A stretch of DNA of 31,017 bases from a virus. The translations under genes and the position numbers were made by a program. The notes under the pieces are model-generated. The model saw only the letters and a list, made by a program, of their open reading frames with translations. It was not told the origin of the DNA and ran no database searches. How positions within the stretch are numbered: the first letter of the stretch is position 1; every line of letters begins with the position of its first letter. The stretch spans positions 1 through 31,017 of IMG/VR virus record IMGVR_UViG_3300037487_001944; one strand, 5' to 3'. This document shows positions 769 to 30,886 of this stretch, piece by piece.

Positions 769-2996
769 GGGAACACCAGGTTGATCGCGTGGAATTCTTC
801 CAGGTTGTCGGCAGGCGCTGCGTCACGGCCGACGTAGTTGCCCTGCCTGAAGCACATCTTATTTGGCGAGCCCACAGCGGTCCTCACACCGTGGGTGTCT
901 TCCTCATAATCTTGGATGATCAAATCCGCGTTCCGGTTGTTACGCGAGGGCCGGTGAATGATGGGTCCGCCGCTGTGATATTGCGTCTTGACCACTACCC
1001 TACCGCCCACGGTTTCAAAGTCCGCGACCTTGTAAAAATAAAGCCCCGTGTTAGCCCCCGGTTCGGGCTGGGCGTGGGCGTCGGTGCCATAGGGGTTGAC
1101 GATCTCCGCGGCGCTGGCTAGATCCAACTCGTTGGTGGTCACCTTGCACCAGATTTCCGACCCGGATGTAATGGTGAATTCGGTGGTGTCGCCTGGGGTC
1201 GTGGGGATGTAGGCGATGACCGCTCCGGGCTCCGGGTTGATGGCGCAGACCATCCCCTGTTTCACGCGGCATTTCCAGGTCGCCCCGTTGAGGTAAATCG
1301 AATGCACGTCGAACTGCTTTGGTGCGGGCGGCAGCGACCATTTGTCCAGCTCCGGTTGGTCGAGTCCGGACACGGTATCGCCGGCCGCCGATGGCGATGA
1401 TTCCGCCCCCAACTTGTTGCTCCCGCGCTCGGCAAAACTCCACCACTTGGTGGGGCGAAAACGGAGGATGCGTTGCAGCTCCAGGAAGTCCGCCGGCGCG
1501 AGGGCCGGGATGGGGCCGAAGCCGATCACCACCCGCCCGGTGGCAACGTCGAAATCCACCGAATGCACCGGTGCCCGCATGCCCGCCCAAGCGGTCGGAC
1601 CGCCGGCCAGATTGAGGGCGCGGCCGTGATAGCTGGTGGCCCCGATTTCGCGGTCCGTGAGGGTCACCGTGCCCTGATAGGTCATGGCCGCCACGATGGC
1701 CTGATAAGTGTCCGACGCGATGCCGGTTGGCACCTCCTCGGGCGGCACCCAACTGGTGATTCCCTTGTAAATTTTCGTCGTCGCGTTGGTCGCGGTGACC
1801 ACGATGGACGTGGGCAGCGATTGGATGATCTTCCGCTCCTCTTCGGTGGCATCGGCGAGGATGCTTACGGACAGGTCAATGCGCACCTTGGCCACCTTGC
1901 GGCGCATCCAATCCTCAAGCGTCCCCTTGACCAATTCGCGCGGCACTTCCGCCACGGTGGTGACCTCCAGCCGGGGGGCTTGGAGTGAGATCGGATCGGG
2001 CATCGGATCGGGTTCTTCCACCAGGGAAAGCGCCCATGATTGCACCACGAAATGGTCAATGTCCACCGCCGCCATGGCGGGGAAACGCTTCTTGATGTAT
2101 TCGTCTGCCGCCGTCCCCACTGCGGTGGGGATCGTGCGGGTTTGGACGCGTGATTTTTGGATCTGCATCTGCATCCCGGCCAGCGGGATCGTGGCGGTGA
2201 TCACCCGGGGGCCGGCGTCCGGACCATCGGTCGGAAACTTGTCGATTGCCACCTCGCGGAAAACCTCGTCATCGATCGTGGTGGCCAGCTCGTAAACCAC
2301 CCGCACGGCGTCCGGCAGCATGTCCGTGCGGTGAACCACATTTAGCGCATCCAGCTCGCTCACGTCGAAGCCGGCCACGGCCGCCGTGCCCGTTGGCACC
2401 ACATTGAAAGTGGGCGGTGCGGTGCTGTGATCCAGGAAAGGAATCCAGTCCGGATGCAGCTTGCAGCAAAGCCGGATCATCTCCTCACAACTCACGTTGG
2501 CAACCTCCGATGGAATCATCAGCTCCCCGGTCGGAAAGGCCCCGGCTTGGATGCTCACGCCGTTGGCGATCGCGTAGTCGATCACCGCTTTGATTTGCGC
2601 CCCGGCGGTGATGCGCTCCCACTCGCCTGAAATTGAGTTATACCCCAGCCCGACCACCGCGCGGGGCAGCATGACCGTGCCCGTGCCATAGCCCCACGGC
2701 TCTTGATAGACCAGCGTAAGCAAGTCCGCCCAGGCATCGGTGATCGCGAGGCTCTGGCCTTCCGACGACCCCTCTGCCGCCACCGGGTTTGAGTTCACCT
2801 TGCCCGAAAAAACCGGCACGCCATCGCGGGCCAGAATGACTGGCGCGCCGAACGCCAACAGCGGATCGGCGTCGAAGTCGCACGCCCGTTGCAGCCGCAT
2901 CTCGCTCACCCCGTAGGAGCGGAAACTACCGCCCGCCAACGTGAGTCCCAAGCCGGCGAGCGTGCTACCATTGAGAGTCCAAACAGGGTCGGGCAT
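765..2996 (-). CDS. Tail hub / tail-tip protein
   Basis: 743 residues. The N-terminal part (about 1-110) has the phage tail-hub pattern 'LLAFGAPVILARDGVPVFSGKV', in which a loaded beta-strand is followed by 'rDG..vFsG', as in gpD/gp27-type baseplate hub proteins. The next 350 residues are beta-rich and include 'LTNTP'-free, domain-like stretches without recognisable motifs. The C-terminal third (about 520-743) looks like a separate beta domain. It directly follows the tape-measure gene, where siphophages encode distal-tail and hub proteins. The hub would cap the tube and hold the fibres. A distal tail protein or host-specificity protein is an alternative. No peptidase or lysozyme motif was seen. 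Confidence 0.6.
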   Translation of the reverse strand: MPDPVWTLNGSTLAGLGLTLAGGSFRSYGVSEMRLQRACDFDADPLLAFGAPVILARDGVPVFSGKVNSNPVAAEGSSEGQSLAITDAWADLLTLVYQEPWGYGTGTVMLPRAVVGLGYNSISGEWERITAGAQIKAVIDYAIANGVSIQAGAFPTGELMIPSEVANVSCEEMIRLCCKLHPDWIPFLDHSTAPPTFNVVPTGTAAVAGFDVSELDALNVVHRTDMLPDAVRVVYELATTIDDEVFREVAIDKFPTDGPDAGPRVITATIPLAGMQMQIQKSRVQTRTIPTAVGTAADEYIKKRFPAMAAVDIDHFVVQSWALSLVEEPDPMPDPISLQAPRLEVTTVAEVPRELVKGTLEDWMRRKVAKVRIDLSVSILADATEEERKIIQSLPTSIVVTATNATTKIYKGITSWVPPEEVPTGIASDTYQAIVAAMTYQGTVTLTDREIGATSYHGRALNLAGGPTAWAGMRAPVHSVDFDVATGRVVIGFGPIPALAPADFLELQRILRFRPTKWWSFAERGSNKLGAESSPSAAGDTVSGLDQPELDKWSLPPAPKQFDVHSIYLNGATWKCRVKQGMVCAINPEPGAVIAYIPTTPGDTTEFTITSGSEIWCKVTTNELDLASAAEIVNPYGTDAHAQPEPGANTGLYFYKVADFETVGGRVVVKTQYHSGGPIIHRPSRNNRNADLIIQDYEEDTHGVRTAVGSPNKMCFRQGNYVGRDAAPADNLEEFHAINLVFP

Positions 2997-3008
2997 ACGG
3001 TTTCGCGG

Positions 3009-4436
3009 TTAGCCTCCGATCGGGCGGCTGGCTTTGGTTCGGGCGTCGATCTCGGCGATCTTTTTGGCTTGGGCGTCCAGCTCGGCCAGCATGTTTTTCA
3101 GCGCGGCCACGGTCGCCCCGCCAAGGCCGGCGGTGGCTTTGGAAAACTGTTGTTGCAGTTTCTGGATTTCGGCCGCGTTGGCACCATCCGCCAAGCTGTT
3201 TCCGATCTCGCCCAGGGCGGTGCCAATCGCCCTGCTTGGAGCGCGTCCCGATGCCTCGCCAAACTTGCCGGCGGCTGCCCTCGATGACGAGTCCAGCCCG
3301 CCCCGCGCGTCTTCGGCTTCCTGCGCCGCCAGAAACGCAACAGCCTTGGCGTGTTGCTCAGCATCCCTTCGGTTTTGCTCCTCAGCTTCGCGTTGCCGGC
3401 GGGCCTGCAGGGCGGCTTGTTCCTTGGCCACCGCGGTAGCTGCGGACTCCCCCAACACCGCTTTCTCGATCCCCCCCAGGGTCTGTGCTTCGTCGTATGC
3501 GCGGGCGGCTTCGTCGGCCGCGGCTTTAGCCGCCTTGGCCGCCTGGCGCCGCTTGGCGACTTGCTCCGGTTCCAGACCTGGTGCGTTCTCGGCGGCTGTT
3601 GCGTCTTGGTCTGCAGTTTCAGCGATCTGGGTGGCCCGCTGCATGGCTGCTTTCCGGCGTTCCAGATCCGCGTCGATTTTGAGCTTGGCTTGTGCTTCAT
3701 CCCACAGAGCCCGATCCGCGCGGACCGTCTCGGGATCTTCCCCTGCCTGCAAGCGGTCGAAATCTCTGCGATCTTTCTTGGCGGTATCGAGCTTGCCGGA
3801 TGCCGCCTCGACTTTCGCAAGCGCTTCCATTTCGATGCTCAAGTTGCGGGCGGCTTCCGTTTGTTCTTCTAGCAGTTTTTTAAACCCTGCCGCCTTCCTC
3901 CGTGCAACCATTTCATCATGATGCCGTGCATGGTTTTCCTCGGCAATCGCCAGATTTTCCGTTGACTCTCGCCGCTCGTTTTGGCCTGCCTGCAAGTCCA
4001 GATAGGCCTCCACCAACTTTTGTAGTTGCTGGGTCATCAGCGTGAACGTCGCTGCCACTGCCCCGCCGGCCGGGCCGGCCACGGCGAAGCCCATCGCCGC
4101 CGCTTGGGCCGCGCCCGCCACGGAGTTCATCCCTTCGGAAACATCATCCGTCAATTCCGCCAATTCCGGGTTGGTCTCGCGGGCCTTGTCGCCCAACTCT
4201 TTGATCTTGGTGCTGGCGATAGACATCGCCGATGCCACCTGCGAAAACACTTCGGCGCGTGCCAGTTGGATCTGGGTATCCTGTTTGCCCTCGGTGGCGG
4301 CGGCCTCGGTTTTTTTGGCGTGTTGGTCCGTGGCGTTGGTCAGGTCCTTGACCGCGTCGGTGCCTTGGCGCACCCCGGCGGCGGCCTCCGCCGCGCCAAC
4401 GGTCGCCATCTGGATTTCTATCTTGCGTTCGGCCAT
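3009..4436 (-). CDS. Tape-measure protein
   Basis: 475 residues, almost entirely helical and rich in Ala, Glu, Lys and Gln. Long coiled-coil stretches cover about 20-80 and 140-400. One hydrophobic, glycine/alanine-rich stretch lies at about 105-135 ('VAGAAQAAAMGFAVAGPAGG'), the usual membrane-like segment of tape-measure proteins. Position between the tube/fibre genes and the hub supports the call. If the common 1.5 Angstrom per residue rule holds, the tail would be about 70 nm, short for a siphovirus. The ATG has an ACCTCCC leader rather than a Shine-Dalgarno sequence. Confidence 0.7.
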   Translation of the reverse strand: MAERKIEIQMATVGAAEAAAGVRQGTDAVKDLTNATDQHAKKTEAAATEGKQDTQIQLARAEVFSQVASAMSIASTKIKELGDKARETNPELAELTDDVSEGMNSVAGAAQAAAMGFAVAGPAGGAVAATFTLMTQQLQKLVEAYLDLQAGQNERRESTENLAIAEENHARHHDEMVARRKAAGFKKLLEEQTEAARNLSIEMEALAKVEAASGKLDTAKKDRRDFDRLQAGEDPETVRADRALWDEAQAKLKIDADLERRKAAMQRATQIAETADQDATAAENAPGLEPEQVAKRRQAAKAAKAAADEAARAYDEAQTLGGIEKAVLGESAATAVAKEQAALQARRQREAEEQNRRDAEQHAKAVAFLAAQEAEDARGGLDSSSRAAAGKFGEASGRAPSRAIGTALGEIGNSLADGANAAEIQKLQQQFSKATAGLGGATVAALKNMLAELDAQAKKIAEIDARTKASRPIGG

Positions 4437-4442
4437 GGGAGG

Positions 4443-5912
4443 TTAGAGCGGGCTTTTGAAAACGCCGAATTTCCGGATGCGAATCACCGCGCCGGCGGAG
4501 AACCGGGCCAGCAGGGTGAGACTGTTTTGCGTGGTGGTGGCGGGCGCAACCAACACGGGCGAGAGCAGCAGGCCCCGGTGATTCGGGATGATTCCGTAGC
4601 TTGCAATATCGTAGGACTGGCCGGCGGTCGCCAACACCGTCCCGCCCGCGGTCATCATGTTGCAGGTTAGGGCCAGGCGGGTGCAGGTGCCGGAGACCAG
4701 CCAAAACTGGCACGCCACCCGCAGCGGCACGGCTTTGGCAATGAGCGCCGCGAAGGCCCCGCCGGAAATCGCCGGCGCGGAGTGGAACACATAGGAGGCG
4801 GCGGTGTATTCCTGCCAGGTTACGCCATCGATCGTGACCAGTTGCGCCGTCGTATGTCCGGTGTGGGTGAAGCCGTCGGCCAAATTGTTTGCCGGGGTGG
4901 TATCCTCGTCCATGTACGGGTTGGTGGTCAGCCAGCCGGCCGAGCCTTTGGCGGGGATGGGATAGGCCGGCCCCACCTCCGGGGCCAGCAACGGGGCCAG
5001 CACGGCGGCCATGGCGGCATGGCCGCCCTGGTTGGGGTGCAGATAGATGGTGCCCGCGCCGGCGTCCTCGTCGTTGTAATAGGCGGACCCGGCCACTCCG
5101 GCGGTTTTGAGCGCCGATGCCCATGGAATGACGGTGGCGTTGTGGGCGGCGGCCAGTGCCGGCAGACCGGCGTTGACGGCATCGATTTTGGTTTGGTAAG
5201 TGCCGGTTGGATCGGCCGCGGTATCGGTGCGTGGCAAAATCTCGCCGATGAAATGCCGCACGCCGGTGGCGGCCACGGTGGCCAGATAGGTGTCGAGCTT
5301 GGTCAGGACTTCGGGGTAGGTGAGCGTTGGAATGTGGTTGGTCCCGATCAGGGAGATGATTGCCCCCGGGGATGTGGCCAGGGCCGCCTGCAGGGGAGTG
5401 AGAGTCACGCCGGGATAGAGGGTCCCGCCGGTGGACAGCTCGTTTACCGAGCGATAGATCAGATCCTCGGTTTGATAGCCGGAATACCCGAAGTCCAGGC
5501 ATGGCACAGACGGGCCGGGAATGGGGTAATTGTTACGAGCCGGGAGGAAGGCGTGATCCAACCGGCTGGCCGTCCACCCGGCAAATGAGGCGGCCTGATA
5601 CCGGCTTAGACCAAAGGTCAGGCCGTCGGTAATGGAGTCTCCCAGAAACACGATGACCAGGGGCAGCGCTCGCGTTTGGGCGGATAGGTTGGTCCGGGCC
5701 TGCGCCTGTTCTGCGGCGGTTAGGGATTGCGCCGCCGTGGTCAGCGCGGTGCCGCCGGCCACTTGCAGGGAGGTATCGGTGAGCGATAGCGGGGTGGCGG
5801 AGCCATCGCCCAAACAGATCGCGCGTGGCGAGCCGGTGAGCGCTCCGCCCGCACCCGCTTGCAGGAGCCATGGGTAAGTGTCTTTCGGTCTGCGTCCGGT
5901 CAGTGAACTCAT
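4443..5912 (-). CDS. Tail fibre with SGNH/GDSL hydrolase domain
   Basis: 489 residues. The N-terminal 80 contain 'LTAAEQAQARTNLSA', a motif common in phage tail fibres. An SGNH hydrolase domain follows at about 83-300: block I 'FLGDSITDG' (Ser 93), block II 'DFGYSGYQTEDLIYR' (Gly), block III 'LIGTNH' (Asn) and block V 'LHPNQGGHAAMA' (His). The Asp normally three residues before the block V His is Ile here, so the catalytic triad may be a dyad. The C-terminal 180 residues are beta-rich and may be a carbohydrate-binding jelly roll. The enzyme probably deacetylates a surface polysaccharide during adsorption (inference). Unusually, it sits between the tube and tape-measure genes. The leader is AT-rich with a repeated TTCAAAATGA. 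Confidence 0.75.
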   Translation of the reverse strand: MSSLTGRRPKDTYPWLLQAGAGGALTGSPRAICLGDGSATPLSLTDTSLQVAGGTALTTAAQSLTAAEQAQARTNLSAQTRALPLVIVFLGDSITDGLTFGLSRYQAASFAGWTASRLDHAFLPARNNYPIPGPSVPCLDFGYSGYQTEDLIYRSVNELSTGGTLYPGVTLTPLQAALATSPGAIISLIGTNHIPTLTYPEVLTKLDTYLATVAATGVRHFIGEILPRTDTAADPTGTYQTKIDAVNAGLPALAAAHNATVIPWASALKTAGVAGSAYYNDEDAGAGTIYLHPNQGGHAAMAAVLAPLLAPEVGPAYPIPAKGSAGWLTTNPYMDEDTTPANNLADGFTHTGHTTAQLVTIDGVTWQEYTAASYVFHSAPAISGGAFAALIAKAVPLRVACQFWLVSGTCTRLALTCNMMTAGGTVLATAGQSYDIASYGIIPNHRGLLLSPVLVAPATTTQNSLTLLARFSAGAVIRIRKFGVFKSPL

Positions 5913-24673: not shown

Positions 24674-24871
24674 ATGCTTGCCGACCTCACCCCCGAAGAA
24701 TTCGCCGCCCTCCGCACCGCGCTGGCGGATGCCCAACGCGCCGGCGAAGCCTCGCCGCCGGGGGCGATCTCCTATTCCGAATTGGCCGCCGCGTTTCACA
24801 CCACCCCCCAGGACATCAAGCTTTGGGAACTCTGCGCCCTGGAGAAAATGCGCGCCCTGCTGCATGTCTAA
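24674..24871 (+). CDS. Small sigma-70 region-4-like HTH protein, second copy
   Basis: 65 residues. 'ISYSELAAAFHTTPQDIKLWELCALEKMRALL' (about 32-63) has the same region-4-like pattern as its neighbour: an 'ELA..f..t...Ik..E..Al.KmR..L' helix-turn-helix, here with fewer basic residues in the recognition helix. It overlaps the transposase gene by eight bases. Together with the preceding gene it could form a pair or heterodimer, but nothing here shows this. Confidence 0.55.
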   Translation: MLADLTPEEFAALRTALADAQRAGEASPPGAISYSELAAAFHTTPQDIKLWELCALEKMRALLHV

Positions 24872-26942
24872 ACCTTTTACCGCCATGACCCTGCCCCCGC
24901 TCTATCCGCCCGAAGATGACGCCGAATTCATGGGCCACAAGCCCGAAGCCCGCGAGCGCGCCTGGTTCCTGTACGCGGCCGCCGCCAAGGCCGCCGCCGC
25001 GCCCAAGAAAACCCGCTGCGCCGTGGTCAAAGAGATCGCCACGGCCAACGGCAAGAGCTTCAACGCGGTCTATGAGCCGGTGCGGTCCTATCTGCAAAGC
25101 GGCGACTGGCGCAACCTGATCGACCGCCGCCGCGCGTCCGAGCTTTGGATCAAAAAGACCGACGCCACCAACGCCTTCCTCCCGCACGCGTTTTGCGAAC
25201 ACTGGCGGATGCTGGTGGAGAACAACCAGCGCTGCGCCAAGACCGCGCACCGCCTCCTCATGATCCAACTCGCCGCCTGGCGACGGGGCGACCTTTCCCA
25301 GGCGATTCCCGGCTTCGTGACGCCACCGCCAAACGCCCCCGGCAAGCGCCATCCCCGCCAGTGGAGTTGCCGCAACCTGCAGCGGGTGAAATCCTCCGAC
25401 ATCGAGATCGAAGCCGTCCGCCACGGCAAGACCGCCGCCATGAAGCTGCTGCCGGCCGTGCTCACCACCCGCATCGGCGGCTACCCCTTGCAGGAAGTGC
25501 AATTCGATGACCGGTGGATTGACATCGACTGTGTCTATGGCGATTCCCGCAGCCTTTCCCGCCTTTTGGAATTCTGCGTGATCGACTGGTACAGCGGCTT
25601 CCATTTCTCCCCCTGGCTGCGCCCCAGGGTGAACCTCGACGGGGTGAACAAATCCCTATCGGAACGCGACTTCCGGCTGTATGCCGTCCACTTCGCGGCG
25701 ACGGTGGGATGGAGTCCGCGCAAAACCATCTATCGCGGCGAGCGCGGCATGTGCGCCTTCCGCTGCGGGCTTGCCGACAAGCTGGCCCGCCACAGCGCCG
25801 GCGGCATCGGGATCGCCGAGCCGGGCATGAGCGGCGACCCCGCATTCGGCGGCGGTTTCCGCGAACTGGCCAAGGGCAACCCCAACGCCAAGGCCCTCAA
25901 GGAAGGCATGGGCAACCTGCTCCACAACCTGGCCGCCGGCATCATCGGCCAGACCGGCATGAACCCCGGCGACAAGCCGGCATCCTTCGCCGGCCGCGAC
26001 GCGGAAACCCGCGCCTTGCTGGATCTGCAAGGCTTTGTTTCCCGCCCGCTCAATCTGGCGCACCTGCGGTTCGAGCAAGTCGCAATGGCGTTGTTCCAAG
26101 TCTATGACATGGCCAACGCCCGCACCGATCACAGCAATGAGGGCTGGCTGGAAGAAAACCTTGTTGTCGAGGAATTCTGCGCGGACCCGCAGCGCGACCT
26201 ATGGTTCCCGGTGGCCACGCTGCCGACCGACCGCCGCATGATGTTCGACCTGGTCGCGCAGTCCACCCCCGGCCTAACACGCCCGCGCCGCATGAGCCCG
26301 GCGGAAGTCCTGACCCCCGCCTTGCCTGGCGCGTGCAAGCTCTCGCCGGCCGCCGTTGCCGATTGCATTTTCGAGGATGTGAAACGCCGGGTGACCATCA
26401 CCGGCAGCCGCGCGGAATTCCGCGATCTGGACCACTACGGCCCCGGCGTGTTCCGTTACCCCAACATTTTCCAAGGTCCGGACGGATTTCCGAAAACCCT
26501 CCCCAACGGCGAGGAGCTTTGGCTCGTAGTCCATCCCGCCATGCCGGAGACCGGGCACTACTTCGCGCCGGACGGCCGCTACCTTGGCCGCGTGGCCCGC
26601 GACCACGCCGCCACCCGCCACGATGCCGACGCGGTGAACCACGCCATCGGCAAGAAGGAAGGCCGCTACAAGGCCGCCACGCTCGGCTTGCAAATCCGCC
26701 ACGGCCTCAAGCGCGAGGCTGACATCACCGACAACACCGCCGCCCTGATGGACGCCATCCGCGACGACGTGCGGCGCGAAATGGGCATCCGCCCAACGCC
26801 CGCCCAGCGCGGCGACGACACCGGCTCGGGCGCCGATCTGGCATCCCTGCTGGGAGGCGGCGACCCGGAGCCGGACACCCCGCCCCATCCCCGCCGGCGC
26901 GACCCATCCGCCGATCTGGCGGCGCTCCTCTCCTTTCCCTAA
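24864..26942 (+). CDS. MuA-like DDE transposase
   Basis: 692 residues from ATG at 24864 (ATG at 24885 is an alternative); Mu A has 663. The N-terminal 200 residues are HTH-rich, as in the end-binding domains of MuA. The catalytic core begins with 'EVQFDDRWIDID' (Asp 216). The second acidic position lies in 'IYRGERGMCAF', where the usual Asp seems replaced by Glu 293. 'GNPNAKALKEGMGNLLHNL' gives Glu 347. Spacings (77 and 54 residues) resemble MuA (67 and 56). The C-terminus ends in twin 'ADLASLL' and 'ADLAALL' motifs that may bind the ATPase. It would cut and join phage ends and target DNA. Confidence 0.85.
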   Translation: MSKPFTAMTLPPLYPPEDDAEFMGHKPEARERAWFLYAAAAKAAAAPKKTRCAVVKEIATANGKSFNAVYEPVRSYLQSGDWRNLIDRRRASELWIKKTDATNAFLPHAFCEHWRMLVENNQRCAKTAHRLLMIQLAAWRRGDLSQAIPGFVTPPPNAPGKRHPRQWSCRNLQRVKSSDIEIEAVRHGKTAAMKLLPAVLTTRIGGYPLQEVQFDDRWIDIDCVYGDSRSLSRLLEFCVIDWYSGFHFSPWLRPRVNLDGVNKSLSERDFRLYAVHFAATVGWSPRKTIYRGERGMCAFRCGLADKLARHSAGGIGIAEPGMSGDPAFGGGFRELAKGNPNAKALKEGMGNLLHNLAAGIIGQTGMNPGDKPASFAGRDAETRALLDLQGFVSRPLNLAHLRFEQVAMALFQVYDMANARTDHSNEGWLEENLVVEEFCADPQRDLWFPVATLPTDRRMMFDLVAQSTPGLTRPRRMSPAEVLTPALPGACKLSPAAVADCIFEDVKRRVTITGSRAEFRDLDHYGPGVFRYPNIFQGPDGFPKTLPNGEELWLVVHPAMPETGHYFAPDGRYLGRVARDHAATRHDADAVNHAIGKKEGRYKAATLGLQIRHGLKREADITDNTAALMDAIRDDVRREMGIRPTPAQRGDDTGSGADLASLLGGGDPEPDTPPHPRRRDPSADLAALLSFP

Positions 26943-26969: not shown

Positions 26970-28031
26970 ATGTCGCATCCCTGGAACATCACGTCCGAAG
27001 AACTTTCGGAAGCCACCACCCACCTGCAATCCGACGAACGCGCCGACCTCGTCTGGGCCTATCACTACTCAGCCGCCAAAAGCCTCGGCTTCGCGCCCTT
27101 TGCCGCCGCCGCCGGGATTTCCGAAAGCACGCTGCGGAAAGTGGTGACCGGAGCCTACATCGATCCCCGCGATCCGGAACGCCCGTTGCCCATGCCCGCC
27201 GGCATGTCCGAATCCATCCGCGAACTGCGGTCCGCTTCCGTGGCTTCCCAACCGGGTGCCGTGAGCTTCGTGTCCACCACCACTTCCCGCAACATCGCCT
27301 CCCACTGCGACCTCGCCCGCAAGTCCGGCACGCCCGTCTTCATGATCGGGGCCAGCCAGATCGGCAAGACCACCGGCCTCGGCAAATATCGCGACTCCCA
27401 CCCGCACGATACCTGGCTCGTCACCGTGACCAGCGGCATGGGAGCCAAGGGCCTGGCCATCGCGATTTGTGAGGAGATCGGCGTTTCTCCGAACGGTTCG
27501 CTATCCGTGCTCACCCGCCGGATCGGCCGCTTCATCCCGCGCCACGGCCTGCTCATCATCGACGATTTCCATGTGCTCACCCTGGCCTCCACCCAGCGGA
27601 CGTTTCTCGCCTCCATGGAGTTTCTCCGGGCCTGTTATGACATGGCCAAATGCGGCTTGCTCCTGAGCACCACGGATCTGGACTACACCGTAATCCACAA
27701 GGAGTTTTCCAAGAGCCTCCACCAGCTCATGCGCCGCGGCGTCCATCATCCCAACCTGGGAGCCCAGCCGCAATCCGCCGACGTGCGTGAAATCCTCGAA
27801 GCCCACGGCCTGAAATGGCCCGCCAAGTCCCTGAAAGTGGACGGCGTGAAACCCTTCGACCTGCTCGCCAATCTGGCCATGGATAGCGGCCTCACCGTCA
27901 TCACCGAGCGGCTCCGCTACGCCCTCCTCTTCGCCACCCGCGACGCCGTGCCGGCCACCTGGCACCACTTCGTGCGGGCAAACTCCGCCATCGCCGACAA
28001 CTCCGCCGCGCCGGAGAACGATTGGAATTAA
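26970..28031 (+). CDS. MuB-like AAA+ target-capture ATPase
   Basis: 353 residues. An N-terminal HTH ('FAAAAGISESTLRKVVTGAY', about 41-63) is followed by Walker A GASQIGKT (127-134), Walker B LLIIDDF (194-200) and 'LLLSTTD' (sensor 1). This is the MuB/IstB-like AAA_22 layout: the ATPase delivers target DNA to the transposase and stops re-insertion into itself. The length is close to Mu B (312) plus an extra tail. It follows the transposase directly with a CCAACC-type leader. Confidence 0.85.
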   Translation: MSHPWNITSEELSEATTHLQSDERADLVWAYHYSAAKSLGFAPFAAAAGISESTLRKVVTGAYIDPRDPERPLPMPAGMSESIRELRSASVASQPGAVSFVSTTTSRNIASHCDLARKSGTPVFMIGASQIGKTTGLGKYRDSHPHDTWLVTVTSGMGAKGLAIAICEEIGVSPNGSLSVLTRRIGRFIPRHGLLIIDDFHVLTLASTQRTFLASMEFLRACYDMAKCGLLLSTTDLDYTVIHKEFSKSLHQLMRRGVHHPNLGAQPQSADVREILEAHGLKWPAKSLKVDGVKPFDLLANLAMDSGLTVITERLRYALLFATRDAVPATWHHFVRANSAIADNSAAPENDWN

Positions 28032-28067: not shown

Positions 28068-28289
28068 ATGGCCACCAAAGCAGAAACCAAGTCCATCAAA
28101 GCGGAAATCCGCGACCTCAAAAAACGCCTCACGGCCCGCCGCAAAGAGCTGATGCGCGTGATCCAAGCCGACCGCAAAACCGCCCGCGAGGCCATCCGCA
28201 ACGTCGATAAAAACACCGATCTCCTGACCCGCTGCGAGCGGGACGTTGACCAACGCATCGCCATCCTGACCGGCCGCCTCTCAGCCTAA
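28068..28289 (+). CDS. Small coiled-coil protein
   Basis: 73 residues with an almost continuous charged helix ('IKAEIRDLKKRLTARRKELMRVIQADRKTAREAIRNVDKNTDLLTRCERDVDQRIAILTGRL'). A 36-base leader made only of A, C and T precedes ATG. Gam- or kil-type accessory genes lie at this place in Mu, but I see no similarity. Function unknown. Confidence 0.55.
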   Translation: MATKAETKSIKAEIRDLKKRLTARRKELMRVIQADRKTAREAIRNVDKNTDLLTRCERDVDQRIAILTGRLSA

Positions 28290-28314
28290 CCAACCACCCA
28301 CCACCCATCCCGTC

Positions 28315-28812
28315 ATGACACCCGAACAAATCGCCGAAGACATTGCCCGAGGCGAGTTCCTCTCCATCCGCATCAAGTGCGACAAGGACGAACTCAAACA
28401 GATCGAGAATCGCCTGGCAGCCGCCGGCCTCAACGTGCCCCACATCCCGCTCAAAGAGCAAGACCGCGAGGGCAAACAAGCCATCCTGCATTGCGGCGAC
28501 CGCACGCTGCCGGTGGTCTATGAGAGCGACCTGTTGATTGCCTCATTCCCCGCCGACGGACTCGTCCATACCACGCTCTCCGAGATCGTCGCCCCGGACG
28601 TTTTCAAGGCGCTTTTCAAACAAGTCCATCAATACGAGCGTCGCCAGGACGACGGCCAGAAATTCCGCGTCGCACTACGCAAGGCCGTGGCAGACGAGCC
28701 GCTGCGCCTCGACATCCTAAAGGTTCTCAAGGCAGTGACCAAAGACGGCATCACCAAGTCAAAAACCGTCATCGCCTGGGACCGTCTCCCGCGCGTCAAT
28801 CAACCCGCCTGA
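28315..28812 (+). CDS. Early-operon protein of unknown function
   Basis: 165 residues. 'MTPEQIAEDIARGEFLSIRIKCDKDELKQIENRLAAAGLNVPHIPLKEQDREGKQAI' opens an alpha/beta protein, with a helical end ('FRVALRKAVADEPLRLDILKVLKAVTKDGITKSKTVIAWDRL'). No enzyme motif is seen. It is the last gene before a strong hairpin, and so the last clearly phage-type early gene. Confidence 0.55.
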   Translation: MTPEQIAEDIARGEFLSIRIKCDKDELKQIENRLAAAGLNVPHIPLKEQDREGKQAILHCGDRTLPVVYESDLLIASFPADGLVHTTLSEIVAPDVFKALFKQVHQYERRQDDGQKFRVALRKAVADEPLRLDILKVLKAVTKDGITKSKTVIAWDRLPRVNQPA

Positions 28813-28823
28813 CTTCGGCCCGA

Positions 28824-28868
28824 GGGGGCGGCGCGGCCAGCCACCGGACACCGTTCATCGCCGCCCCC
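28824..28868 (+). terminator. GC-rich hairpin after the early operon
   Basis: GGGGGCGGCG (28824-28833) pairs perfectly with CGCCGCCCCC (28859-28868), with a 25-base loop, 12 bases after the stop codon. No T-run follows. It could be a terminator or end-protecting stem. It is followed by a 35-base CCAACC leader for the next gene. Confidence 0.5.
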
Positions 28869-28902
28869 CAACCTTCCAATCCAACCAACCAACCAACCAA
28901 CC

Positions 28903-29214
28903 ATGCCAACCTGTACCGCCATCATTCCCCGTCCTGCCGATGCCCCGCCGATCCGAGTGCTCGAATGCAAATCCCGCCGCCTAAACTTCTGGGTTAGTGA
29001 AACGCTGGCCGCCAAAATCCTCGATCTGTCCGACACCCGCGGATGGACGATCACCGAAACCACCCGCCACCTGATGGAACGCGGATTGCAGGCCGAAGCC
29101 CACGATCCACTGAACGAAATCCAAGCACAAATCGCCACGCTCACGGCCCGTCTGGATTCTCTGGCGAACGCAGAGGCCATCCGATCCGCTGGCGAATCAA
29201 CCCCAACGAAGTAA
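28903..29214 (+). CDS. Third ribbon-helix-helix protein with coiled-coil tail
   Basis: 103 residues. 'RRLNFWVSETLAAKILDLSDTRGWTITETTRHLMERGLQAEA' (about 25-66) fits a CopG/Arc RHH fold with a strand and two helices. 'LNEIQAQIATLTARLDSLANAE' makes a coiled coil. It has a six-unit CCAACCAACC leader, a phage-type feature, but its 3' end lies inside the first attC-like site (29163-29284), so it may be a cassette gene or the gene the array attached to. Possibly a regulator. Confidence 0.6.
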   Translation: MPTCTAIIPRPADAPPIRVLECKSRRLNFWVSETLAAKILDLSDTRGWTITETTRHLMERGLQAEAHDPLNEIQAQIATLTARLDSLANAEAIRSAGESTPTK

Positions 29215-29284
29215 ACCAATGCCTGCCAAGAAAAAACTGAAAGGAGCCGCTGTGAGCGGGTCGGATGCGCCGCCTTGTTCTGGC
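29163..29284 (+). repeat. attC-like site 1 (weaker)
   Basis: Box GGCGAAC (29163-29169), arms 29173-29190 and 29255-29274 pair in 16 base pairs with a G-T and a mismatch, one extra base (C 29268) on the right arm, and right box GTTCTGGC (29277-29284). The loop is 64 bases. The right box is the complement of the left box of the next site (29538-29545), as expected where a cassette's own 5' end is complementary to its own R''. Weaker than the other two; the left box does not match its right box exactly. Confidence 0.5.
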
Positions 29285-29308
29285 TCTTCGAATTACCCCA
29301 AACCACCG

Positions 29309-29551
29309 ATGAAAAAACACCTCCAACTCGTATCAAACCGCCGCGATCCGCACAGACTCCGCAACGTCTGCGGGTGCGATGGAATCACCGCCGATTTCGT
29401 GGCAGATGTCACTTGCCGCCGGTGCCTGCAATCCGCGGCGCGACTGATCGCCAACAGGCTCGCCGAGGTCTCCCCAGTATGGCTTATGCACAAAGACAAG
29501 ACGCGGACGCTGGTCGGCGAAGAGCTAGTCCATTGTGGCCAGAACGCTTGA
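29309..29551 (+). CDS. Small zinc-ribbon protein in an integron-like cassette
   Basis: 80 residues from ATG at 29309, chosen because it is the first ATG after the cassette boundary (29278); an in-frame ATG at 29219 would start inside the attC-like site. 'CGCDGITADFVADVTCRRCLQSA' is a CxC...CxxC zinc-binding pattern. The stop lies at the left box of the next attC-like site, the usual place in cassettes. Function unknown. Confidence 0.55.
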   Translation: MKKHLQLVSNRRDPHRLRNVCGCDGITADFVADVTCRRCLQSAARLIANRLAEVSPVWLMHKDKTRTLVGEELVHCGQNA

Positions 29552-29627
29552 CCTCATGCACGCCGACCCTACAGCCCCGATTTCAGCAACGACGTTCCCG
29601 GCGTTGCATGCAGGTCATTGTTATGCC
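29538..29627 (+). repeat. attC-like site 2
   Basis: Left box GCCAGAAC (29538-29545) and right box GTTATGCC (29620-29627). Inner arms pair: 29549-29554 with 29612-29617, 29555-29559 with 29606-29610, and 29560-29565 with 29599-29604. Two right-arm bases stay unpaired (C 29611, T 29605). Spacers of 3 and 2 bases separate boxes from arms, and the loop has 33 bases. This is the R''-L''-L'-R' layout of integron attC sites. The left box is the exact complement of GTTCTGGC, the 5' end of its own cassette (29277), not of its current right box. Confidence 0.75.
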
Positions 29628-30335
29628 TCTTCGTGTGGCCGCGTGACGCTGTATCTCGGGGACTGTAGGGACATGGAAATCACCAGTGATGCGGTCATAA
29701 GTGACCCGCCGTATGGTATGGAGTGGGAAGGCAATCAGCGATTCAGCGGAGGGAAAACCCGCAGGGGCAAAGGCACGAAACACGGGATGATCGCCCATGA
29801 CGATGAGCCGTTCGACCCTGCGCGGTGGGTAGCTCTGACAATCCCGGTGGTCTTGTGGGGGGCGAATCACTTCTGGCATCGGCTGCAGCCCGGCGCGGCG
29901 CTCATCTGGCAAAAGCGGAACGATCACGCCCTCGGGACATTCTTGAGCGACGCGGAGGTGGCGTATCTGAATCGCGGATGCGGAGTCTATGCCTACACGA
30001 AAACCTTCGCTGGCTCCAGTCGCGCCGTGGATGGTGGAGTCGATCCATACGAGGGGAGTCTCCACCCGAACCAGAAACCCGTTTCGCTCATGGCGTGGTG
30101 CATGGACAAAGCCAAGGTGCCAGCCGGTGCCGTGGTGCTCGATCCCTACATGGGAAGCGGGACAACTGGAATCGCCTGCATCCGCACCGGACGCCGCTTC
30201 GTGGGAATCGAGAAAGATCCCGCGCACTACGCCACGGCGCTCGCACGAATCACCAACGAACTCGCCCAGGGGGATCTATTCCTTGGGCATAACGCTTCGG
30301 GTGATGCGCGGCGTCCCGACGCTCCGCTTGCCTGA
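29556..30335 (+). CDS. Site-specific DNA methyltransferase (beta-class, N6-A or N4-C)
   Basis: 259 residues from ATG at 29556; GTG at 29643, just after the cassette boundary, is an alternative start (230 residues). Motif IV 'ISDPPYGMEW' (DPPY at 50-53) comes before motif I 'VVLDPYMGSGTTGIACIRTG' (196-205 in part) and 'FVGIEKDP', the beta-class order. Also 'HPNQKPVSLMAWCM'. The recognition sequence is unknown and no restriction gene is visible, so it looks like an orphan methylase that could protect the element. It lies between two attC-like sites, with its stop inside the second. Confidence 0.8.
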   Translation: MHADPTAPISATTFPALHAGHCYASSCGRVTLYLGDCRDMEITSDAVISDPPYGMEWEGNQRFSGGKTRRGKGTKHGMIAHDDEPFDPARWVALTIPVVLWGANHFWHRLQPGAALIWQKRNDHALGTFLSDAEVAYLNRGCGVYAYTKTFAGSSRAVDGGVDPYEGSLHPNQKPVSLMAWCMDKAKVPAGAVVLDPYMGSGTTGIACIRTGRRFVGIEKDPAHYATALARITNELAQGDLFLGHNASGDARRPDAPLA

Positions 30336-30373
30336 CCACCTTCCCGCCGTCGCATCCACCCGATTGTTATGCC
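30286..30373 (+). repeat. attC-like site 3
   Basis: Boxes GGCATAAC (30286-30293) and GTTATGCC (30366-30373) are perfect complements. Inner arms: 30297-30303 with 30357-30363, 30304-30308 with 30351-30355, and 30309-30313 with 30345-30349, all paired. Unpaired right-arm bases are C 30356 and T 30350, in the same order and spacing as in site 2. Spacers are 3 and 2 bases; the loop is 31 bases. Confidence 0.8.
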
Positions 30374-30407
30374 TCTTTGAATCCCCGACAATACCAAGAC
30401 CACCATT

Positions 30408-30881
30408 ATGATAACGCAAGAATCCGCCGCTGCCATCTGGACCGCATACCGTGAAATCGCCACTGCCGAAAAGCTGTTGGCCGACATGGAATCGGAAATG
30501 AAATGGGAACATGACAAGACCGCGCCCGTGCTGAAAGACGCATTCGGGCGTAAACGAAACCTCCAACTCGGGATTCCGAGCGGAGAGAATAGCCACCGGC
30601 TGTTTGACGTGCCGCCGAAACTGGCAGGCTCGGTGATCCGTGCCCACATTGCGCAGAAGCGGGCAGAGCTTGCCGAAGCCAATGAACAGGCAAGAATTGA
30701 CCTCATGGGCGATGGAAGCGCCGCACAGCGGATTGAGTCCCCTGAAACAAACGTGAAAGAAGCAACTGCCGCTGCCGAAGAATGGTGCGAAGTCCGTGAC
30801 GCGGAAAGCCGTAACCGCGCGATCTATTGCTATACAGCCGGATACATCGCGGCACTTTCTCGGCATAACAAGTTGTTATAG
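30408..30881 (+). CDS. Helical cassette protein of unknown function
   Basis: 157 residues, mainly charged helix ('AYREIATAEKLLADMESEMKWEHDKTAPVLKDAFGRKRNLQLGIP', 'IRAHIAQKRAELAEANEQARIDLMG'). It starts 35 bases after the preceding attC-like box and its stop lies just past a GGCATAAC half-site, as is typical for cassette genes. Base composition is less GC-rich than the phage genes. No domain recognised. Confidence 0.65.
   Translation: MITQESAAAIWTAYREIATAEKLLADMESEMKWEHDKTAPVLKDAFGRKRNLQLGIPSGENSHRLFDVPPKLAGSVIRAHIAQKRAELAEANEQARIDLMGDGSAAQRIESPETNVKEATAAAEEWCEVRDAESRNRAIYCYTAGYIAALSRHNKLL
30862..30880 (+). repeat. Left half of a fourth attC-like site
   Basis: GGCATAAC (30862-30869) equals the left box of site 3 and is the complement of this cassette's 5' end (GTTATGCC, 30366). 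The following bases repeat TTGTTATA, so a short local hairpin is also possible. No matching right box occurs before the window ends, so the site is incomplete here. Confidence 0.45.
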
Positions 30882-30886
30882 GAACC

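Follow-up and report, generated by a model that had tools for sequence, protein, structure and literature searches.

What is a chain of folded, attC-like sites doing at the end of the early genes of a Mu-like phage, and which way do the cassettes between these sites face? The question is raised by a 31,017-base IMG/VR virus record, a linear contig that we analyzed over its full length and refer to as the window. A sequence-only reading of this DNA had noticed three sites with attC layout (29163-30372) and had interpreted them as an integron-type cassette array beside a Mu-like prophage. The late genes of the window are on the minus strand, with PHROG matches to major head protein, head maturation protease, portal, large terminase subunit and endolysin, and the plus strand carries the early block, which runs from a MuA-like and a MuB-like gene through three small genes into the cassette array (Table 1). 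The presence of MuA, MuB and virion genes identifies the phage as Mu-like. None of the three small genes (28068-29214) has a confident Pfam or PHROG assignment, and the third terminates within S1, the attC site at the distal end of the array.

The answer favored by the sequence comparisons, which we hold with high confidence, is that the early operon of a Mu-like phage has an integron cassette array and its attI built into it. The gene order places the array inside the early region, after MuA and MuB, and not beside the phage. Two observations, the shared attC family and a Luteolibacter prophage of similar layout, point to Verrucomicrobiota as the probable host.

Table 1. Early genes, attC sites, cassettes and attI-like site of the window (positions in the 31,017-base record).
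Feature	Position	Strand	Evidence or remark
MuA-like DDE transposase, first large early gene	24678-26942	+	phrog_310 transposase, E 4e-4
MuB-like AAA ATPase	26970-28031	+	phrog_296 DNA transposition protein, E 2e-26; AAA_22
Three small early genes	28068-28289, 28315-28812, 28903-29214	+	ORF list
attC S1, distal array end	29162-29284	-	covariance model 33.9 bits, E 5.8e-6
Cassette 1	29277-29545	-	R' GTTCTGGC / R'' GCCAGAAC, 7/7 box match
Small Cys-rich ORF of cassette 1, 80 aa	29309-29551	+	coding score; alternative start 29219
attC S2	29538-29627	-	covariance model 71.3 bits, E 2.7e-14
Cassette 2, DNA methyltransferase cargo	29620-30293	-	R' GTTATGCC / R'' GGCATAAC, 7/7 box match
N6/N4 DNA methyltransferase, GTG start	29643-30335	+	PF01555, E 2e-16; phrog_67, E 5e-38
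attC S3	30286-30373	-	covariance model 65.6 bits, E 5.1e-13
Cassette 3	30366-30869	-	R' GTTATGCC / R'' GGCATAAC, match read from sequence
157-aa helical protein gene of cassette 3	30408-30881	+	ORF
attI-like site	30862-30886	-	minus strand GGTTCCTATAAC-AACTT-GTTATGCC; 97% identity over 38 nt with v565
Small basic protein gene after attI, cut by contig end	30887-31017	+	resembles v565 gene

The evidence that the folded sites are attC comes from several kinds of analysis. A scan of the whole window for the pattern AAC-hairpin-GTT, blind to position and made with a home-made, conservative scanner, returned S1 (29163-29283), S2 (29539-29626) and S3 (30287-30372) as its top three matches, and S2 and S3 outscored all shuffled versions (40/40). 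A chained-array detector, which demands 7/7 R'/R'' complementarity between neighboring sites, found exactly one three-site chain in the window (S1-S2-S3) and no chain in 60 window shuffles. An attC covariance model, constructed from 16 sites that all come from contigs other than the window and containing nine base pairs, each with compensatory changes, also ranked these three sites first (E 3e-14 to 6e-6); in the rest of the window the next match scores 14.7 bits and none has an E better than 0.1. The training set includes close kin of S2 and S3, so that the model scores of these two sites reflect shared descent in part, and not structure alone. Folded as single-stranded DNA, S2 (z -3.6) and S3 (z -4.9) are more stable than their shuffles, but S1 is not (z -0.4). 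Thus, by their R''/R' boxes, paired arms and two extrahelical bases, S2 and S3 are strong attC sites and S1 a weaker one, and the proposal of an integron-type array is upheld by both the chain and the model.

Relatives of all three sites occur in other arrays. Over 117 nt, S1 shares 82% identity with an array site of an unrelated phage (v067, 5084-5200), S2 has 96-98% identical copies in the viral contigs L006 and v307, and S3 is 88% identical to a site of v565 and has an arm core that recurs in two sites (a and d) of the Luteolibacter prophage. The genes that adjoin these copies differ, with the exception of L006, where a related methyltransferase is found. A search of IMG/VR with the 16-base core of S2 gave mostly chance matches without a hairpin. 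Two further occurrences of these site types were observed. A short contig from a Nitrosomonadaceae MAG (L065, 900-1690) contains an attC of the S2 type together with a region related to the window methyltransferase region; either the cassette occurs outside recognized phage contigs too, or the bin is contaminated. In a phage contig with a DnaB-like helicase gene (L190, 5020-6013), an S3-type attC adjoins a PAPS-reductase-like gene.

The exact box agreements of the cassettes (Table 1) had been noted before and are real, the second pair occurring twice. The argument built on them is correct but symmetric, and says nothing on orientation or on which cassette an attC belongs to. In all three window sites, read along the plus strand, it is the right arm that contains the extrahelical bases, and the covariance model matches the minus strand only; the bottom strand of each attC is thus the plus strand, and the cassette to which an attC belongs is its right-hand neighbor and not its left-hand one. 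The strand reading was calibrated on a Vibrio phage integron, whose attC, followed in the direction of the gene, has its pair of extrahelical bases in the left arm, and on hosts, for which we fetched 40 IntI neighborhoods of Verrucomicrobiota chromosomes, 15 of them with scorable arrays. In the host arrays, wherever the signal is unambiguous, the side of intI is matched by the arm that has the extra bases. Assignment of each attC to the left-hand cassette was rejected after this calibration. Because all three cassette genes of the window are on the plus strand and the attC sites on the minus strand, the cassettes are reversed (for cassette 3, by its own ORF and site strand).

At its other end the array runs into a sequence that the sequence-only reading had overlooked, as it had the inversion of all cassettes. 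The box that closes cassette 3 (GGCATAAC, 30862-30869) is part of an attI-like site, the minus strand of which reads GGTTCCTATAACAACTT-GTTATGCC. The array of v565 ends with the same sequence, again followed by a gene for a similar small basic protein, and in the phage contigs L003 and L004 a related sequence (TTGGTTCCTATAATTAACT followed by GTT) stands directly before an integron integrase gene. Because the v565 array ends in the same way and the L003/L004 relative abuts intI, the window site is likely to be an attI. No intI was found in the 31,017 bases of the window, and the contig stops 131 bases past attI; taken alone, the window is thus a CALIN with an attI.

The integrase is found in relatives of the phage, which answers one of the refuting conditions set by the sequence-only reading, the lack of an integrase in the host or related strains. 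A pattern scan of genome contigs located the same attC family in Luteolibacter marinus NBU1238, on a 57.9-kb contig. This contig represents a Mu-like prophage and is collinear with the window, having its late genes on the minus strand and MuA/MuB on the plus strand. Its MuA shares 26% identity over 574 aa with the window transposase, and its MuB 25%. The order of genes is MuA, MuB, Mu Gam, four attC with four cassettes, an attI-like site, IntI and further genes, and the boxes of all four cassettes agree (GTTAGCGA/TCGCTAAC, GTTCGCC/GGCGAAC, GTTCTGCC/GGCAGAAC and GTTCATCC/GGATGAAC). The IntI scores 254 bits against the NCBIfam integron integrase model (cut-off 265) and retains the catalytic residues R, K, H, R, H and Y together with the IntI-specific segment. 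In the genome collections no other Mu-like prophage of the window's kind was found to carry IntI. A related prophage (G269, MuB 48% identical) has an ortholog of the post-intI gene and a Gam-like gene upstream, with neither attC nor IntI between them, and 20 other MuB neighborhoods in Verrucomicrobiota genomes contain no IntI and no attC array. Two more IntI homologues of Luteolibacter (C66, C157) have no array of the window's attC family. The first of these (L079, Luteolibacter G013:C66) scores 305 bits, above the family cut-off, and is adjoined at ~4290-4660 by ~42-base tandem repeats (AACAAGGTTAAGTCCGTCGC...) and by no recognizable attC array.

Viral contigs provide many more examples. An alignment search of IMG/VR for IntI gave 401 contigs, and 20 of the best 80 have arrays with scorable cassettes. 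Besides the Luteolibacter prophage, no fewer than 15 independent viral loci of IMG/VR have the core layout of attC array, attI and IntI, all collinear; phage identity was examined for some of the IMG/VR contigs. Some are Mu-like: L252 has MuA, MuB, Gam, array, IntI and further genes, and L229 has MuB, Gam, methyltransferase, array and IntI, then a portal gene. The window MuB is 32-33% identical to those of the IntI-bearing contigs L252 and L192, and a search of IMG/VR with the window MuB as sole query found no relatives. L201 and its relatives belong to a different type of temperate phage, which has genes for a ParB-like protein, SSB and a phage integrase downstream; in this group the attI is conserved (TGTCGTnGAATTTAA-GTT) and the first cassette differs. 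The IntI proteins of L201, L244, L265 and L213 score 450-479 bits (cut-off 265). One 65-kb phage contig (L012 and L081-L083, IMGVR 3300037307_000719) has a cassette array at each end, which is how a circular genome broken within a variable array during assembly would look. The claim that the array sits beside a prophage fails on these comparisons: L252, L229 and the Luteolibacter prophage all have array and IntI within phage genes, and the window attI is followed by a gene resembling the one that follows the same attI in v565.

To quantify orientation we chose the gene of each cassette by codon score, which replaced a longest-ORF rule, and then compared its strand with that of the attC. In the first six phage contigs 18 of 19 cassettes are reversed, and in the IntI-bearing viral contigs, after removal of near-duplicates, 24 of 27. 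The viral total is 42 reversed to 4 canonical, versus 3 to 52 in chromosomal Verrucomicrobiota arrays (Fisher p ~4e-20, duplicates removed). Counted per independent locus, the ratio of reversed to canonical is 22:1 for viruses and 1:14 for hosts, the host exception (L189) being ambiguous in strand. The covariance model independently yields the same strands. The one exception among the 19 cassettes of the first six contigs, v565 2539-3357, proved to be a wrong call, since its C5 methyltransferase sits on the other strand. The reversed viral cassettes run toward attI, in line with the phage operon. A minority of viral loci (Rctr41k, L211 and L241) have intI first and canonical cassettes after it; in both viral arrangements cassettes and intI are collinear. 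In Rctr41k (L271, KX853513, 4680-10101) the IntI is annotated as XerD and is followed downstream by six chained attC, with canonical cassettes collinear with intI; this virus stands outside the list of phages with integron integrase given by Qi et al. (PMC9892861). Among the known phage CALINs, TJE1 gives mixed strand calls and P12002L has 0 chained sites, so neither is orientation-scorable.

Arrays in close relatives differ in content. L003 and L004 are 99.96% identical from attI outward through IntI (2.7 kb) and 100% identical in the other flank (1.2 kb), and between these flanks blocks have been gained, lost and reordered, with the methyltransferase cassette moved. The same kind of cassette difference between near-identical flanks separates L199 from L201. 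Two phage pairs with near-identical flanks and different cassettes indicate that the turnover is recent. Unrelated phages, for their part, share attC types that adjoin different genes. The suggestion that such phages could swap cargo is supported by both observations, and the natural rearrangements in sibling phages agree with IntI-mediated attC/attI recombination.

The early region of Mu-like phages carries accessory genes such as those for DNA modification and antirestriction functions. The window shares modification genes with this early cargo, and differs in that they are separate cassettes bounded by attC. Its methyltransferase has no restriction enzyme gene beside it in the window, and a 54% identical homologue is a cassette in the L003/L004 arrays; for this solitary enzyme we infer that protection from host restriction is the likeliest use. 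Five other phage contigs (L013-L017) encode proteins that share 60-68% identity with residues 1-99 of the cassette-3 protein (30408-30704), and in L013, L015 and L016 the flanks of these homologues show no obvious attC-like boxes. Domain matches across the phage arrays include N6/N4 and C5 DNA methyltransferases, a phosphoesterase, and PAPS-reductase-like and DHH-like proteins, and an HNH-like protein is named from its sequence alone. The methyltransferase cassette of L006 is flanked on both sides by a near-identical ~130-base element (ATGAGGCGGCTCTTCATCGG..., 1-130 and 805-930), the right-hand copy taking the place of the cassette's attC; both cassette ends match window cassette DNA, and the protein is only 44% identical.

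Could the array instead be a fragment of a host chromosomal integron, caught by chance and carried as passive cargo? Captures of this kind are known for Vibrio and Shewanella phages (PMC9892861), the cassettes of the phage integrons of Shewanella M16-3 and Rctr41k are canonical when re-scored, and IntI is common in Verrucomicrobiota (108 of 388 genomes). We consider this origin unlikely, because cassettes are inverted in the window and in 21 other viral loci, unlike in hosts, because the same attC types and attI occur in unrelated phages, and because the position of the IntI gene with respect to the array is the same in many such phages. It is much less probable still that the array is host DNA past the right end of the prophage, joined to it in the contig. 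The window does stop soon after the array, and Mu-like insertion is near-random; yet in L252, L229 and the Luteolibacter prophage there are genes, phage-like where identified, beyond the array and IntI, the post-attI gene is common to the window and phage v565, and the one-strand run of genes from the early block is unbroken.

Two further readings concern the sites themselves. Both attC and terminators fold, and the intergenic spacing would suit either, so the hairpins might be terminators or regulatory palindromes between early genes. The exact box concordance of each cassette, the extrahelical bases at attC spacing, the covariance-model support, the near-identical sites beside different genes and the shuffled arrays in relatives leave this idea next to no credibility, and for S2 and S3 the results count directly against it. 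The inversion, for its part, might be an artefact of the extrahelical-base strand reading or of wrong ORF calls, given the modest codon scores in short cassettes, the wrong viral call described above and a few ambiguous strands. We think this most improbable: applied to hosts, this pipeline returns canonical cassettes for 14 of 15 loci, on the strand expected from the intI side, the covariance model agrees on strands, the directions of the methyltransferase ORFs are confirmed by homology, and the viral attI/IntI position fits the strand call.

The favored reading, an integron array built into the phage early operon, suggests the following mechanism. IntI would be encoded by the phage genome and, for the phage of the window, perhaps be supplied in trans. 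Judging from its family and from the natural rearrangements, it would recombine the folded plus strand of each attC with attI. The gene order suggests that transcription from a phage early promoter would enter the far end of the array and run toward attI, and under such read-through selection would favor cassettes in which gene and attC have opposite directions. The cargo, a solitary methyltransferase and two small proteins, would then act early in infection, most likely against host restriction. Read-through that favors inverted cassettes would explain the orientation bias, and it predicts a phage-specific cassette pool. More generally, we judge it probable from these comparisons that several unrelated types of tailed phage run an integron of their own in a phage operon, with IntI, attI and inverted-gene cassettes read by phage transcription, and that these cassettes form a shared pool, set apart from the bacterial pool by gene orientation and reshuffled between close relatives, in which DNA methyltransferases are prominent.

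It is instructive to compare these arrays with known systems. Phage CALINs and a few host-captured phage integrons are already known: among 10,705 phage genomes, Qi et al. 2023 (PMC9892861) found three complete integrons, one In0 and 17 CALINs, with methyltransferases among the phage cassettes, and proved recombination at phage attC. Like the window, those phages carry attC arrays, some with DNA methyltransferase cassettes. The same study interprets the complete integrons as captures or mosaics of host integrons, and in the sections considered here it reports no inverted cassettes, no early-operon integron and no shuffled sibling arrays. With sedentary chromosomal integrons (Verrucomicrobiota L150-L189; Vibrio) the phage arrays share IntI, an attI 5' of intI, attC hairpins with two extrahelical bases, and R'/R'' concordance; in the Verrucomicrobiota chromosomal arrays, however, the genes point away from attI (52/55), and in the phage arrays toward it. 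The reverse integrons of Treponema, in which intI is collinear with canonical cassettes (PMC3607928), resemble the phage arrays in this collinearity, but there it is intI that is inverted and transcribed toward attI, whereas in the phage arrays intI keeps its normal position and it is the cassette genes that are turned around. Rctr41k, L211 and L241 resemble the Treponema arrangement. We found no inverted cassette pools and no phage-operon integrons in the literature searched, which comprised open-access papers, so that the novelty is provisional; with this proviso, phage-operon integrons with an inverted cassette pool appear to be new.

Integrons are commonly seen as bacterial platforms that phages acquire now and then. 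The arrays described here suggest that phages run integrons as a plug-in of their own for early genes, with the orientation rule flipped for phage transcription. This would provide a mechanism for the rapid swap of modification and other early genes among unrelated phages, and a natural test of what sets cassette orientation. Cassette surveys that presume canonical orientation may have misread viral cassettes.
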